Assembly: GCA_002067235.1 (NCBI GenBank)
Contig: MVQP01000002.1
Location: 1 to 64,000 of the forward strand
Direction of reading: 5' to 3'
DNA: 64,000 bases
Source of the DNA: Syntrophorhabdus sp. PtaB.Bin047
GTDB lineage: Bacteria; Desulfobacterota; Syntrophorhabdia; Syntrophorhabdales; Syntrophorhabdaceae
The notes below the pieces were generated by a model that ran no database searches, was not told the origin of the DNA, and saw only the letters and a list, made by a program, of their open reading frames with translations. Below are positions 52,759-62,650 of the stretch, in pieces; positions within the stretch are counted from its first letter, which is position 1, and the number at the start of each line of letters is the position of its first letter. A program made the translations under genes and the position numbers.

Positions 52759-52814
52759 ATGTTTTGCAAAATTACCAAAAAAACATCCTCTTTGTAAAGG
52801 TAAAAAAAAGGCGG

Positions 52815-54236
52815 TCACCACGATTCGACCTTCAACCCGTGCGCACCCTGGTAGACGATCTCCCGTCCGGCGGAGTCCCGCGCCACTTTTTCGAGCAGCT
52901 GCCTCCTGTCGAGACCCGACGAGGACGTGAGCCTGGCGAGGAATCGCAACCTGTCCCGGGTTGCGATCCTCCTGGGAAGAGTGGTGTTGAGCTGAAGGAG
53001 CATCCTGTGGAGAACGTCCCCGTCCACCTCCCGGAAGCTGATATCCTCGACATCGAGGAAACGAAAGGTGCCGTCATCCAGCCTGAAGACATTGCAGGCC
53101 TTCAGATCGCGATGGACGACCCCGGTCCTCAAGGCCCCCTTGAGGAAGAGCGCAAGGGAATCCGCCAGGACCTTCCTCTGCCTGTCGGAGGCCCTGTCGT
53201 ACACCCTGTCCACGTGGCGGTCCAGCTCCTCTCCCCGCTCGCCGAGGTCCTCCATGGCGATGTACCCGCGCCGGAAGAGGGCGGGCATAGCGAGGCAGAA
53301 CGTGTCGGGGATGAGCGGAAGGTTCAGGTAGACAAGGGCGATGTGCGCCTTCCATGCCCTCCTGAGCCTCCTTCTCCCGGCGTATATCTTCCGCACGTGG
53401 TCGGCGTATCTCTCGACGGTGACCTTTGCATCCTTCTTGAGGGTCTCCACAAAGGCGCCGCGCCCGCGGTCCTGCCTGCCAAGGACGTACAGGTATTTGC
53501 CTTCCCAGCCTGTCTTTGAAGTGTTCTCGAAGGCCCGGCGCTGTTTCCTCAGGATCCATCGCATGTGCATTGCCCTGAGGGTCCGTTCGGCCTCATCCCG
53601 TATCCCGTCCTTTCCGTAACGCCGGAAGAACGTTTCCTTCTCGTCGGGGGTCATCGTCCAGTAGGCCATGGCGAGGGCGTGAGAGAGGTTCGAGATCTCG
53701 TCGGTCCGGGTAAAGGAGCCCTTTATCTTCATCTTGTGGAGGTCGATGAGGTAGAGCCGGCCTTTCGAAACAAGCACGTTGTTCAGGTGGAGGTCGTTGT
53801 GCAGGACATGGTGTTCCTCCAGGGCCTTGAGCAGCTGTGCGAGTGCCGCGATGAGCTTCTCCCGGTCACCGGACCTGTGAAAGACGTCTATGAAGCTTTC
53901 CCCCTCGATATACTCGTGGACGACGCAGGAGCGACCCGGTCCCGATCCGTATCCGTAGGACGTGGGCGTCGATATCCCGAGAGAGGCGAGTTTCCTGCTC
54001 ATGAGATACTCGATGCGTCCCCGGGGATGCACCCTGTTCCGCAGCGCCCCGAGAAGGCCTTTTTCCAGAAAGGATTTTACGAACACCCTGCCGGCCCTGA
54101 AGGGATAGGTGCCGTAGAGCCTTCGTTCTCCTCCCCCATGGGAGAAAGGCTGCAGGACCTCGACGAGCCCCCTGTCCTCGAGGTGCCACTCGATGCCGTT
54201 TATGCTGGCGTTTGTTAGTCCTTCGGGGTCTTTCAT
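52815..54236 (-). CDS. Tandem lipopolysaccharide-kinase-like protein (two kinase domains)
   Basis: 473 residues from ATG 54236, which overlaps the glycosyltransferase stop. Two protein-kinase-like domains of the Kdo/WaaP/InaA group follow each other. Domain 1 (about 30-235): Lys54 in VFVKSF, HNDLHLNN (146-153), IDLH with Asp165. Domain 2 (about 265-470): HRDLKACN (375-382) and LDVED with Asp395; the expected beta-strand-3 Lys appears as Glu275 in VTVERY, so ATP binding may be altered. Proteins of this group phosphorylate Kdo or heptose in the LPS core. A double-domain form is unusual. Its place between a glycosyltransferase and bamA/lpx genes supports an LPS-core substrate. Confidence 0.85.
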   Translation of the reverse strand: MKDPEGLTNASINGIEWHLEDRGLVEVLQPFSHGGGERRLYGTYPFRAGRVFVKSFLEKGLLGALRNRVHPRGRIEYLMSRKLASLGISTPTSYGYGSGPGRSCVVHEYIEGESFIDVFHRSGDREKLIAALAQLLKALEEHHVLHNDLHLNNVLVSKGRLYLIDLHKMKIKGSFTRTDEISNLSHALAMAYWTMTPDEKETFFRRYGKDGIRDEAERTLRAMHMRWILRKQRRAFENTSKTGWEGKYLYVLGRQDRGRGAFVETLKKDAKVTVERYADHVRKIYAGRRRLRRAWKAHIALVYLNLPLIPDTFCLAMPALFRRGYIAMEDLGERGEELDRHVDRVYDRASDRQRKVLADSLALFLKGALRTGVVHRDLKACNVFRLDDGTFRFLDVEDISFREVDGDVLHRMLLQLNTTLPRRIATRDRLRFLARLTSSSGLDRRQLLEKVARDSAGREIVYQGAHGLKVESW

Positions 54237-55201
54237 AGCGAATCCACGATCCTGGCGAACCTCTTGCCCCAGGTCTGCAGAGAATACCTTTCCACCGCTG
54301 TCTGCCGCGCCGCCGCACCGATGCGGCGGCGAAGGGCCACGTCGGAGGTGAGAGCTCTTATGGCCTCGTCCCATCCCACGGGGTCGGTCCTCAGGAACCC
54401 GTTCACGCCATCCGCCACGATCTCCTTCGAGACGCCGACGGGGTTCGTGACCGAAGGAAGGCCCATCGCCATGTACTGGATCAGTTTCAGCCCGCACTTT
54501 CCCCTGGACCACGTGTCGTCCGCGGCGGGCATGATGCCCATGTCGAAATCGAGGAGCATCTCCTTTTCCCGCTCCTTGTTCCATCTTTGAAAGGTTATCC
54601 CCCGTTTCTCGACGCCGAAAGGTCTGTCGGCGATAACCCTGAATTCGATCCCTTCCCTGTCGGTGATGGAAAGTATAAGGTCCCGGATGCCGTCGAGGTA
54701 CCGCAGCGTCGAGCTGGTCCCGATCCATCCGACGACGAACGTCCTCCGTTCTTCGTGCACCTTCACGGGGTATTCGTTGATGTCCACGGTGGTGGGCATG
54801 TAGTGGATGCCGGAATCCCTGTACCTGCCCGCCTCCTCCATGAGAAAGGAGTTCCCGCAGAGGACCGCCTTCGAGGCCCTGACGATGGCTGCGAACCTGT
54901 TCCTTCTCGTTGCGCTCTCACCCTTCCTGCCGTACATGACGGCATCGTCGAAATCGTAGACCATCTTCTTCGCGAACATCTTGAGAAGGGAGAGCTTCAT
55001 GGGGCTCAAGAGGACCCTCTGCACGACGACGACGTCGGACCGCGAGGCGGTCCTTAGCAGGGTGCCGAGGTCCGCCTTCGTTGTCAGGAGAGAGACCTTG
55101 AAACCCCTTTCCTCGAGATACGGGAAATACTGCTGGATCCTGTATCCCACAGGGTTCTCCTTCGTGAATATATTGTGGGTGTAGAAGAGTATCTTTTTCA
55201 T
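54233..55201 (-). CDS. Glycosyltransferase, GT-B fold (family 1/4 type)
   Basis: 322 residues from ATG 55201 (MKKILFYTHN); the frame upstream to 55267 is the promoter. N-terminal half with AKKMVYDFDDAVMYGR, C-terminal nucleotide-sugar domain with VVGWIGTSSTLRYLDGI, DFDMGIMPAADDTWSRGKCGLKLIQYMAMGLPSVTNPVGVSKEIV (E-x7-E-like site in G-KLIQYMAMGLP) and NGFLRTD. No signal peptide; a cytoplasmic enzyme using a nucleotide sugar, likely for LPS core. First gene of the envelope operon. Acceptor and donor unknown. Confidence 0.85.
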   Translation of the reverse strand: MKKILFYTHNIFTKENPVGYRIQQYFPYLEERGFKVSLLTTKADLGTLLRTASRSDVVVVQRVLLSPMKLSLLKMFAKKMVYDFDDAVMYGRKGESATRRNRFAAIVRASKAVLCGNSFLMEEAGRYRDSGIHYMPTTVDINEYPVKVHEERRTFVVGWIGTSSTLRYLDGIRDLILSITDREGIEFRVIADRPFGVEKRGITFQRWNKEREKEMLLDFDMGIMPAADDTWSRGKCGLKLIQYMAMGLPSVTNPVGVSKEIVADGVNGFLRTDPVGWDEAIRALTSDVALRRRIGAAARQTAVERYSLQTWGKRFARIVDSL

Positions 55202-55238: not shown

Positions 55239-55267
55239 AATATATCATCGCCGTATCGGGCTGTCAA
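55239..55267 (-). promoter_or_regulatory. Promoter of the long envelope operon
   Basis: Minus strand: TTGACA (55267-55262), 17-bp spacer, TATATT (55244-55239). It precedes the glycosyltransferase and could drive the whole run down to mazG (about 14 kb); leader about 30 nt. Confidence 0.8.
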
Positions 55268-58477: not shown

Positions 58478-58993
58478 TCACCACTCCACGGTGATCGTGA
58501 GTCCATCTTCAAAGCTTTGTGCGGCCACATTCTGCCGTGCCCGAATGCTTCCGTAGACGAAGAACTCTTTCTCGCCGCCATCCTTCCCGAAGGCGAAGTC
58601 TCCCTTATATGTTCCTTGCTCGCCGTCACCCCAGATCTTTGTGCAGGACGTGTCCTCGTAGAGATTGTACAGAAGGATGTCACCCCCGTCTCTCTTCATC
58701 AATCTCTGACTGAAATTCCCGGAAGCGCCGGCGCTCAGTAGAACCCTGCCTTGAGCGGCGGTCTTGCAGTACACCTTGAATGAGCCGGCCCCCGTGGCAG
58801 GATTCGGAGAAAACGGATTATACTCGATAAACGTGATGCCCGACACGGATATTATCTGGCAGGGTTCCTGGGAGATACAGGTGCCCGCGGAAAGAACAAG
58901 AAGGAGGAGTGCAACGGAAACTACAAAGCAAATGGAAAACAGCGATGATGATTCTCCATGGTCAGTGCTGTTCTTCAACAAGGATGCCTCCAA
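58478..58993 (-). CDS. Spore coat U (SCPU) domain pilin, likely tip subunit
   Basis: 171 residues. Hydrophobic signal segment at about 19-40 ending near ISQEPCQ, preceded by a polar stretch that may mean a later start. SCPU signature: CQIISVSGITFIEYNPFSPNP, GSFKVYCKT, VLLSAGASGNFSQRLM, LLYNLYEDTSCTKIWGDGEQGT and C-terminal FEDGLTITVEW as the donor-like last strand. Such proteins are subunits of archaic/sigma-type chaperone-usher pili. Overlaps the usher 3' end by 32 bases; last gene of the locus. Confidence 0.88.
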   Translation of the reverse strand: MEASLLKNSTDHGESSSLFSICFVVSVALLLLVLSAGTCISQEPCQIISVSGITFIEYNPFSPNPATGAGSFKVYCKTAAQGRVLLSAGASGNFSQRLMKRDGGDILLYNLYEDTSCTKIWGDGEQGTYKGDFAFGKDGGEKEFFVYGSIRARQNVAAQSFEDGLTITVEW

Positions 58994-61334
58994 GGTCTAC
59001 CATCGTATCGTCGGACTGCGGTATCCTGATGGTGATGTGATATGTCCTGCCGGCCTTCTCTATGCCTCCGCGATGGCTGCCGGCCGGGATGTTCTCGAGA
59101 TAGAACTCACCCCGGGCGTCGGTGACGAAAGGGACTTCCTTCCCGTCTACGGTGAGTTTCGCCTCGCAGAGACCCAAGGGAGTGGTTCCCTCCCGGGTCC
59201 TTCTTTCGATGCGTCCCGTGAAGGCCCGGACCCTCACCGCATCGAAGGAGAGAAAGGTGCCGCCCCTTAAGGGCGGCGAGACATATCTTCCGACCTTCTC
59301 GAGGGAGTATTCCACGGGTACATCCCTGTCATCGATGGAGACGTAGTTGTCCTGATACGAAGCCATGACCGGTATGAACGCCTTTCCCGTTCCGTCAGTG
59401 CGTCCGATGAGGTGATTGTTGTGATATACCCGTACGCCCTTCAGGTCACCCACCTTCACCACGCCGTAACTGTCGCTGATAGGACGGCCGAAGGCGATCG
59501 TCCTGCCGACGTAAGCGATCCCCCCTGACGCGTTGAGCCGTATGGATTCGCTGGAATTCGTCGCCCCTGCCGGGTATTTTCCGGAGAGCTCTGCGCTGTA
59601 GATCCCGTACGGCCCGTTGTATTGGATGTAGGGGTTCACAAAGAGCGACCGGGTATCCGGCAGCTCTTCCCGCGAGGCCGACACCCTGTACCCGAAGCCT
59701 TCGCCAACGGGGGCGTTCTTCTGCATCTGCACGCCCTGGGATTCGCCGCCGCTGTCCTTCTGGAGGTTGACGGAAAGCATTACGTCCTTCCAGAGGTGAA
59801 AGGTGAGGCCAAGGCTGATCTCTGTGCTGGAGACCTCGTCCTTCGTGTGCCTTATGGAAAAGTAAAGGTTCGAGTCTCTTGTGATGCCTCGTGAGTAACT
59901 GAGGGTAACGCTCTGCCGCTCCTGCCCGGTGTACCTGCCGATACCGGCGTAGTCAAGGGAGATCGATCCCAACGTTCCCGTGCCGTATCCGATGGTGGTT
60001 CCCAGCTCGTATCTCTTCCGGTCATTCACGGTCCGAGGTGTGACCGTTGAGTATCCTTGTGTATAGGCGGCGTAGAGGAATCTCAGGTTGATGTTGCGCC
60101 GCTGGTAACTGTAACCCAGGGAACCGGCATATCCCGTCGATCTCACGCCGTCCCTGTCAGCGCTTGCAGCACCCGAGAGGCTTAGCACCCCGTAGTTCCT
60201 GATGAGGAACGACATCCGGGGGCCGATGTTGACGAGGTGGCTCGAGGATTCACCTCGCGCACCGACCGTAAGGGAGTCGGTGGCACCGTAATTGTGGAAG
60301 AAGAAAGCGGCGAACCGTCCGTAATCGTTGCTGTCGATCCCGTAGTTGTTCCTGAGGAAGCCGGCGTTGTAACTGAATTCATGCAATCCGGCGCGAAGGA
60401 GGACGTCGGAGGAATAGAAGGGGTACCTGACGGTCTCCTCCCGGCCGAAGGCATCCCTGACGGCGATCTCCAGGTTGTGGACACCGTTGAAGGAAAGGAT
60501 GTTCTTCAGGTCGAAAGGCCCCGGGCCCACCCTGTCGGAGCGTATCCGGGTGCCGTCCACGGAAACCCCGACCTCCGAGGGCAGGGTGGCGAACCCGGTG
60601 TAATCCACCATGGGCTGCTTTATGAAGTAGGGGTCGATGGAGAAGTTCCTCGAGAGACCGATCCCACCCATGTTCACGGCGCTGCCGAGATATCCCGAGG
60701 CGGCGTAGAGATCGCCGACGACGGCGCGGTTCAGGTTGTGCCTTGACTCACAGGTCATGTTCGTTGACAGGCGCACAAACCTTTCGACGCTGTCGCCCCT
60801 GGTGTACAGCGAATCATTGAGAAACAGGATATCTCCCATCCGTGCGCCCAACTGGGTTGTGCCGGCAAAGGACCTGTAGTTGAGGAGACCGTCGCCGGCA
60901 TAGTTGAGGCCGTAATTGAAGAAGGCGCCGGTATCCTTCGGATGATAGATGTCGGTCCGTCTTGCGGGCCTGACATCGATGGACCTTCTCCTGAGAAGGT
61001 GGGCCTCAGCCACGATATCGAGAGAGACCGTTTCCTGGTCGAAGGCGAAGGATACTCCTTTCATGGACCTCAATGATATGAACGTTTCGCCCCCTGTGAC
61101 CGATACCATGCCCGTCGGATCGGTGAACCCCATTGCGGTGAGATCTTCCCTGTTCAAAAGGCAGTCGCCGTCCGGCGTGAGATAGGCAAAGAACTCGCCT
61201 TTCCTTTCCGTGTTGAGGACGACCTCGAGGACGAGATGCTCCCGGCCCGGGCAATCGAGCGGCGTGAGAAGGGCAAGGACAGCGAAGAGATACAGGGACA
61301 AACTCCTCGGCCAACGGGGGTGGTACGGGGCCAT
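58962..61334 (-). CDS. Outer-membrane fimbrial usher
   Basis: 790 residues from ATG 61334 (signal peptide MAPYHPRWPRSLSLYLFAVLALLTPLDCPG); GTG 61352 is a less likely start. Usher features: N-terminal domain with VLNTERKGEFFAYLTPDGDCLLNREDLTAMGF, 24-strand barrel (GYLGSAVNMGGIGLSRNFSIDPYF region with a plug inserted), and C-terminal domains with GLCEAKLTVDGKEVPFVTDARGEFYLENIPAG. Secretes and assembles SCPU pilins delivered by the chaperone. Shorter than FimD, as usual in archaic systems. Confidence 0.92.
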   Translation of the reverse strand: MAPYHPRWPRSLSLYLFAVLALLTPLDCPGREHLVLEVVLNTERKGEFFAYLTPDGDCLLNREDLTAMGFTDPTGMVSVTGGETFISLRSMKGVSFAFDQETVSLDIVAEAHLLRRRSIDVRPARRTDIYHPKDTGAFFNYGLNYAGDGLLNYRSFAGTTQLGARMGDILFLNDSLYTRGDSVERFVRLSTNMTCESRHNLNRAVVGDLYAASGYLGSAVNMGGIGLSRNFSIDPYFIKQPMVDYTGFATLPSEVGVSVDGTRIRSDRVGPGPFDLKNILSFNGVHNLEIAVRDAFGREETVRYPFYSSDVLLRAGLHEFSYNAGFLRNNYGIDSNDYGRFAAFFFHNYGATDSLTVGARGESSSHLVNIGPRMSFLIRNYGVLSLSGAASADRDGVRSTGYAGSLGYSYQRRNINLRFLYAAYTQGYSTVTPRTVNDRKRYELGTTIGYGTGTLGSISLDYAGIGRYTGQERQSVTLSYSRGITRDSNLYFSIRHTKDEVSSTEISLGLTFHLWKDVMLSVNLQKDSGGESQGVQMQKNAPVGEGFGYRVSASREELPDTRSLFVNPYIQYNGPYGIYSAELSGKYPAGATNSSESIRLNASGGIAYVGRTIAFGRPISDSYGVVKVGDLKGVRVYHNNHLIGRTDGTGKAFIPVMASYQDNYVSIDDRDVPVEYSLEKVGRYVSPPLRGGTFLSFDAVRVRAFTGRIERRTREGTTPLGLCEAKLTVDGKEVPFVTDARGEFYLENIPAGSHRGGIEKAGRTYHITIRIPQSDDTMVDLGGILVEEQH

Positions 61335-62131
61335 CTCATCCGCGGACCACACATGCCCCCTGTTACCTGCATCGTCTCCTCGAAGGAATTCCTGGTGGTC
61401 CTGACGGCCGTCCTGATCGTCGAGAGTTTTTCGCAGACTGCCGGAGGGATCTGCGTCCCGTAGGTCCTGGAGGCGCCGGCGAGCAGGTACCAGCCATTGA
61501 GGCTCCTCGAGAACGCCTCTTCGCCCCTGTCATCCCGGCCGCTTACCGTGATCGACTGGATGACGAGATGCGTATTGCCGGCATTTTTCATACTGAGAGA
61601 GAGCTTTCCTCCCTGCATCGCGAGAGACCCGACGGCCCCCCTGTCCTCGCTTTTCAGGGGGTTGACGAAAAGGGGTACCCCGATCTTCAACGCAAAGCTT
61701 ACCCCCGAACCTCTTGTCTTCCCGTCCCCCACGGGCAGTTCCTCGACGTAGACCCTGTATGTCTTTTCCCGTGTCGCCGGACCTGCGGTCGTGCCGAGAC
61801 GGATGAGCCGCTGTCCCCCCCTGGGTATCCTGACGATTCTGGGGAAGACCAGGATGTCGGAGGTATCTTCGTAGACATCCTTTCCATCATTGTCCTGCGT
61901 CCATTTGAAGGTCTTTGCCTGGACGGTGAGGTCGCCGTCGCTGAGATTGTTGACGACGAGCTTCTCCGCCCTTGTCCTGGTAGTGAAAGATACGCGCACG
62001 GGCTGCACGTCAAAGCCGGCGGCCCGCGATGTTGCAGGGGCCGAGAGCACGGCTCCACAGAGAAGGGTAAAGAGAAGGATAAAGAGAAGGCCGGTCCCTG
62101 GGGCCGGCCGTTCCCCGCGATACGTGCCCAA
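61154..62131 (-). CDS. PapD-like periplasmic pilus chaperone, probable 3' frame break
   Basis: The first about 260 residues are a complete chaperone: signal peptide (1-38), VQPVRVSFTTRTRAEKLVVNNLSD, ILVFPRIVRIPRGGQRLIRLG (F1/G1 strand with conserved Arg/Lys binding the pilin C-terminus), YRVYVEELPV, then domain 2. In the continuous frame it then runs 60 further, low-sense residues through the usher start. If the C5 (G5 in the gene) at 61356-61360 is shortened by one, the gene ends VTGACVVRG-TGA at 61338-61336, one base before the usher ATG, a normal junction and a normal length (about 264). So an indel is likely. Confidence 0.8.
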   Translation of the reverse strand: MGTYRGERPAPGTGLLFILLFTLLCGAVLSAPATSRAAGFDVQPVRVSFTTRTRAEKLVVNNLSDGDLTVQAKTFKWTQDNDGKDVYEDTSDILVFPRIVRIPRGGQRLIRLGTTAGPATREKTYRVYVEELPVGDGKTRGSGVSFALKIGVPLFVNPLKSEDRGAVGSLAMQGGKLSLSMKNAGNTHLVIQSITVSGRDDRGEEAFSRSLNGWYLLAGASRTYGTQIPPAVCEKLSTIRTAVRTTRNSFEETMQVTGGMCGPRMRWPRTTPVGRGVCPCISSLSLPFSRRSIARAGSISSSRSSSTRKGKASSLPISRRTATAF

Positions 62132-62140
62132 GGTCTTCCC

Positions 62141-62650
62141 CTAGTATTCCAGAACCGCCGTCAATTTGGCCTGCCAATCCGTGACGCCGCCTTTCACATC
62201 CTGGTTCTTCGCGATTACGCCGTATATTGTCTGCGTTATCGCGTTTTCCTCTCCGATGCCCTTTCCGATGCCTCCAAAGCCATCCGTCTTCACCGTGGGG
62301 ATCTCCTGTAAGTACGAGGCGTCCTGATACAGCTGGAAGGTAAGCACCTGGCCGGCCGCGCTGCCGGATGTCATTTCCCGCGTGCCCGTGATGTAATAGC
62401 TGTACGCCTGGTCCTTGGTGCAGGTGAGCTTGATATCCGTCGATCCTGTCGTCTCGGTCGTGGCGAGCGGACTATAGGCGCCGAAGTCCAGGGTGAACGC
62501 GGTGGTGCTGAACTGGCAGCCGCCGTTCGACGTTGCCTTCACGATGAAATCGCTCGTGGCTGTGCCCGCCGCCGCGCCGGCGCAAAGAACCATGGTCGCA
62601 AGCAGGGCCACAGACAATAGAGCCATCGACTGTGTCAGAGTATGTTTCAT
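62141..62650 (-). CDS. Spore coat U domain major pilin
   Basis: 169 residues. Signal peptide 1-28 (cut near AGAAAG), then FIVKATSNGGCQFSTTAFTLDFGAYSPL, TTGSTDIKLTCTKDQAYSYYI (Cys pair), LTFQLYQDASY, and TDWQAKLTAVLEY. SCPU fold, first gene of the pilin-chaperone-usher-pilin locus, preceded by AGGAGG. Probably the main structural subunit. Nine bases separate it from the chaperone. Confidence 0.88.
   Translation of the reverse strand: MKHTLTQSMALLSVALLATMVLCAGAAAGTATSDFIVKATSNGGCQFSTTAFTLDFGAYSPLATTETTGSTDIKLTCTKDQAYSYYITGTREMTSGSAAGQVLTFQLYQDASYLQEIPTVKTDGFGGIGKGIGEENAITQTIYGVIAKNQDVKGGVTDWQAKLTAVLEY

Follow-up and report, generated by a model that had tools for sequence, protein, structure and literature searches.

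A candidate lipopolysaccharide core kinase with two fused WaaP/Kdo-type domains, encoded beside a GT4 glycosyltransferase in Syntrophorhabdus

The stretch of 64,000 nucleotides from Syntrophorhabdus sp. PtaB.Bin047 that was analysed here (the window) carries a tandem (two-domain) kinase gene of the lipopolysaccharide (LPS) type at 52815-54236, on the minus strand. It encodes 473 amino acids plus a stop and is supported by its translation, its Pfam matches and a start that is kept in relatives; the coordinates given in an earlier sequence-only note on this DNA are correct, with the coding strand running from 54236 to 52815. Directly upstream lies a GT4-family glycosyltransferase gene (54233-55201, minus strand; Pfam), whose stop shares four bases (54233-54236) with the kinase start, in agreement with the overlap described previously. 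The GT4 start was placed at ATG 55201 on the strength of a conserved promoter shortly before it, a sigma-70-like extended -10 element (55239-55267, minus strand; TTGACA-17-TATATT, 11/12, with TG extension) kept in all six genus members compared. Because this promoter is conserved just before ATG 55201, the GT4-kinase pair probably stands first in a transcription unit, in line with the operon-head position proposed for the kinase; this reading covers the pair and does not extend to co-transcription with bamA.

On the same strand, 3' of the kinase, follow bamA, skp, lpxD, fabZ, lpxA, a Gfo/Idh oxidoreductase gene, lpxB, msbA, a DUF374-like gene and waaA, these names having been assigned from reading the sequences. 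The kinase-bamA spacer (52760-52814, minus strand), between the kinase stop and bamA, holds a T-rich block and is strongly kept in 6/6 genus members; it may serve bamA as a promoter or leader. A terminator behind the kinase was considered and rejected, since the hairpin lacks conservation and terminator counts are no higher than in shuffled sequences. Further upstream, at 58478-62650 and on the same strand, stand open reading frames which, judged from their sequence, resemble a chaperone-usher fimbrial cluster.

The kinase divides into an N-terminal WaaP-like domain (D1, residues 1-238; 53523-54236, minus strand) and a C-terminal kinase domain (D2, residues 239-473; 52818-53522, minus strand). 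The whole protein matches Pfam PF06293 (Kdo/WaaP) in two stretches with 41.2 bits, against a cut-off of 21.3; D1 alone scores 28.8 bits, and D2 of the window protein alone falls below the cut-off at 16.0 bits. D2 of the relative L044 reaches 47.4 bits, and among relatives both domains pass as PF06293. The profiles of the two halves recognise each other (profile-profile match 98.9%, E 2.5e-17), and an AlphaFold2 model of the whole protein (pLDDT 94.6, pTM 0.86) contains two full kinase folds (about 10-227 and 259-459), with the LPS core heptose(I) kinase WaaP (PDB 6dfl) as its top Foldseek match. The proposal of two LPS-kinase-like halves in one chain is thereby borne out by profiles and structure prediction alike.

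The two domains differ in how near they stand to WaaP. Searched against PDB sequences, the D1 profile finds WaaP 6dfl at 2.2e-18 and the second-best entry at 2e-7, while the D2 sequence profile retrieves generic Ser/Thr kinases, not WaaP. The score of E. coli WaaP drops from 63 bits on D1 to 23 bits on D2. Folded alone (pLDDT 96.2), D2 has WaaP 6dfl as its best Foldseek match (5.5e-9; second 5.3e-7) and at the top of a structure search by Z (Z 17.2 over 210 residues, 3.8 A), where PRPK/Bud32 is tied with it. A protein kinase or Bud32/PRPK-like ATPase unrelated to LPS would be in keeping with folds that score level with WaaP within error, and NCBIfam Bud32 models do reach up to 41 bits; these 41 bits, however, lie far under the Bud32 cut-offs, which start at 125 bits; by sequence, D1 matches WaaP better than anything else by eleven orders of magnitude; and most relatives sit in a glycosyltransferase context, so that such an identity is highly improbable. 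The profile searches thus did not assign the halves to one single kinase family unrelated to LPS, the result named beforehand as fatal to the LPS-kinase reading. A defence kinase (PADLOC PD-T4-6) was also rejected, as the scores stay at generic kinase level.

The NCBIfam equivalog models for the Kdo kinase KdkA (PRK01723), WaaP and the heptose(II) kinase WaaY (PRK10359) all score below their cut-offs on the window protein (29.7 vs 142, 23.3 vs 170 and 22.9 vs 248 bits, respectively). The KdkA and WaaP models each match D1, and the KdkA matches, although weak, recur in 35/35 D1 members (best 1.3e-15). Because no equivalog reaches its cut-off, sequence alone does not name the sugar (heptose or Kdo).

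Conservation of active-site residues was counted over 94 non-redundant tandem proteins, with fewer scorable rows at some positions; all codons given below lie on the minus strand. D1 carries the complete WaaP-type set: the beta-3 ATP lysine K54 (54075-54077; 91/91 scorable), the alpha-C glutamate E76 (54009-54011; 92/93), the catalytic loop H146-N-D148-L-H150-L-N-N153 (53778-53801) and the metal motif D165-L-H167 (53736-53744), which is the same Asp-Leu-His (DLH) that belongs to the definition of the WaaP motifs (PMC6147952). The lysine, the glutamate and both aspartates are kept in nearly all 94 proteins, His146 in 77 and His167 in 73. D2 has its own beta-3 lysine K283 (53388-53390; 91/92 scorable), a catalytic loop H375-R-D377-L-K379-A-C-N382 (53091-53114; D377, K379 and N382 in 93/94) and a metal motif D395-V-E397-D398 (53043-53054; D395 in 94/94). 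Overall, the catalytic residues of both halves, among them the aspartates of the motifs noted earlier (D148/D165 in D1, D377/D395 in D2), stand in 91-94 of up to 94 proteins. Two elements of the WaaP-type set are replaced in D2: DLH gives way to DxE/D, and E76 of D1 aligns to A294 in the alpha-C site A294-W295 (53352-53357), where Ala, Ser or Gly stands in 89/94 proteins and the next residue is Trp in 94/94. On the model, D2 is WaaP-like by fold and not a canonical WaaP-type member.

It had been suggested that D2 lacks the ATP-binding lysine, with Glu275 (53412-53414) in its place. This was a misreading: the model places beta-2 at 272-277, beta-3 at 281-285 and alpha-C directly after, at 288-304, so Glu275 lies in beta-2, outside the lysine position. 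Residue 275 is variable (E in 32, S in 26 and T in 10 of 94, with L and others besides), in contrast to the conserved 283, and beta-3 of D2 reads VCVKQF, ICVKEY or LCVKWY in distant relatives. The case resembles that of WaaP, where a reading of the sequence first gave K69 as the catalytic lysine and the structure put K51 in its place.

The regulatory role for D2 that the earlier note derived from the missing lysine loses its ground with it, and D2 shows none of the losses (beta-3 Lys, HxD Asp or metal Asp) that would mark a pseudokinase. An arrangement with D1 as the only active LPS kinase and a degenerate D2 that positions the substrate or regulates D1 still deserves weighing, as the alpha-C Glu is missing from D2 in essentially all homologues and the D2 sequence is farther from WaaP. 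A domain freed from catalysis, however, usually loses some of its catalytic residues, whereas Lys283, the HxDxK loop, Asn382 and Asp395 are conserved as well as their counterparts in D1; both halves are under purifying selection within the genus (dN/dS 0.07-0.26), D2 comparably to D1; and single kinases fused to GT2 that group with the D2 clade are likewise without the alpha-C Glu. A lone active D1 is accordingly regarded as unlikely, if worth keeping in mind, and the strict conservation of D2 argues for catalysis by this domain too, despite the absent glutamate.

The tandem architecture is widely distributed. Matches occur in 41/43 sampled genomes of the same order (40-86% identity), and among 247 genomes drawn evenly from the phylum Desulfobacterota a profile search found matches at 1e-20 in 53, most of them across both halves; the survey of this phylum advised in the earlier note therefore recovers the double architecture. 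More tandem homologues come from Planctomycetota, anammox lineages and Omnitrophota; none was found to be plasmid-borne. Judged by this distribution, the family of tandem proteins is old and conserved, and not a local oddity. In a tree of 80 domains, where the deep order inside D1 is without resolution and the E. coli rows form long branches that leave the placement of E. coli WaaP unsure, one branch splits D1 from D2 with support 99/89 and in 100% of bootstrap trees. This split agrees with the fusion having arisen once and not by repeated duplications. A recent internal duplication was rejected, as D1 and D2 fall on opposite sides of that branch and D1 is by far the better match for E. coli WaaP. 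An apparent natural split into two genes at one locus (L115) was likewise dismissed, as a run of N in the assembly separates the halves.

The bamA/lpx neighbourhood emphasised in the earlier note is real at the window locus and was given too much weight, for it recurs in only 5/94 non-redundant relatives, the closest ones; on this comparison, the placement is a recent, genus-level feature. The glycosyltransferase, by contrast, is the conserved part of the context: one lies within 4 kb of the kinase in at least 76/94 relatives and, in at least 59, no more than 150 bases away on the same strand, both counts being lower bounds because calls based on open reading frames are imperfect in GC-rich DNA and missed the window gene itself. 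In one group the tandem kinase stands between two heptosyltransferases and a GT2-kinase fusion is nearby; a Scalindua homologue directly follows a heptosyltransferase. In a same-genus genome (G009), the GT4-kinase pair lies in a stretch rich in glycosyltransferase genes, about 13-17 kb from two heptosyltransferase (waaC/waaF-like) genes and two hldE-like genes, so that heptosyltransferase and heptose-synthesis genes are present together in that genome. GT9 heptosyltransferase matches were obtained in 12/12 genomes of the order tested, with at least two in 11 and one in the remaining genome.

Both domains might instead be active and have a glycan other than the inner core as their target (outer core, O-antigen or capsule, as with WbdD). 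Some contexts are indeed rich in GT4, GT2 and methyltransferase genes, and a Wzt-type ABC transporter lies near some homologues. Against this stand the heptosyltransferases that flank the kinase in one group, the existence of a GT9-kinase fusion, and the ranking of WaaP above WbdD in both the D1 sequence-profile search and the D2 fold search. This alternative is considered quite unlikely, even though the glycosyltransferase context does not by itself tell the inner core apart from the outer core or the O-antigen. The GT9 fusion is a single open reading frame of 589 amino acids (L167, 1685-3451) in which a Kdo/WaaP kinase is joined to a GT9 heptosyltransferase. Unusual fusions of a GT2 glycosyltransferase to a Kdo/WaaP-type kinase, situated near heptosyltransferases, were observed at three further loci (L093, 9556-11253; L098, 700-2412; L089, 1715-3451), and it is their kinase domains that group with the D2 clade.

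Among characterised systems, WaaP/RfaP (E. coli waaP) is the closest counterpart, sharing its kinase fold with each half and the K, alpha-C E, HxD and DLH motifs with D1, and LPS-core gene context is common to both. WaaP is nevertheless a single domain of about 265 amino acids, unlike the two domains in one chain described here, and D2 differs from it by the lack of the alpha-C Glu and by its HRDLKxxN and DxE/D motifs. WaaP also requires acyl-ACP binding through its C-lobe. The O-antigen methyltransferase-kinase WbdD likewise joins a sugar-modifying kinase to another enzyme, but that partner is a methyltransferase and not a second kinase, and the profile and fold matches of WbdD are weaker. 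In Pseudomonas aeruginosa, the putative LPS kinase PA5006 has at least 493 amino acids, about twice the length of a single kinase (PMC8707732), and adjoins the carbamoyltransferase gene wapO (PMC8005017), beside wapQ-wapP-waaP; a carbamoyltransferase also adjoins the GT4-kinase pair in several Syntrophorhabdaceae. Given its length and neighbours, PA5006 might be an already named gene of the same architecture.

Taken together, the protein is probably a tandem sugar kinase that takes part, in the cytoplasm, in assembling the LPS core, its two fused WaaP/Kdo-type domains most likely serving two inner-core positions. The GT4 glycosyltransferase and the kinase would be expressed together. In each domain, the beta-3 lysine (K54; K283) and the metal aspartate (D165; D395) would hold Mg-ATP, and the HxD aspartate (D148; D377) would serve to pass the gamma-phosphate on to a hydroxyl of a core sugar. 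We infer that both domains are catalytic and that they divide the labour, D1 and D2 most likely acting on different inner-core positions (heptose or Kdo) of a molecule that MsbA has yet to export. A pair of kinases for successive positions of the core, one of the options raised at the outset, is thus a possible and the favoured reading; counted against it is that D2 has no alpha-C Glu, the partner of the lysine in WaaP. The broader proposition, of a widespread LPS core kinase with two active sites for two core positions, D1 following the WaaP mechanism and D2 using a distinct site without the alpha-C glutamate, is advanced more tentatively, at a little less than even confidence.

Phosphates of the inner core bind divalent cations and hold the outer membrane together; little is known of how LPS is phosphorylated in the large Desulfobacterota and Planctomycetota, most of which are uncultured. 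With its two distinguishable active sites, the conserved tandem kinase offers a concrete candidate for this activity in both groups, and D2 provides a natural kinase domain without the usual partner of the lysine-glutamate salt bridge. The literature search found no paper on a tandem LPS kinase, though a subscription paper could exist; the kinase domains are known, and their combination in tandem, with a second site that diverges, appears to be undescribed in the literature searched. The source genome has only one other clear gene of the Kdo/WaaP family (L050, 8930-9772; G000:C4, about 17 kb), which encodes a single domain and shares a clade with InaA of E. coli and further single kinases, apart from D1 and D2.
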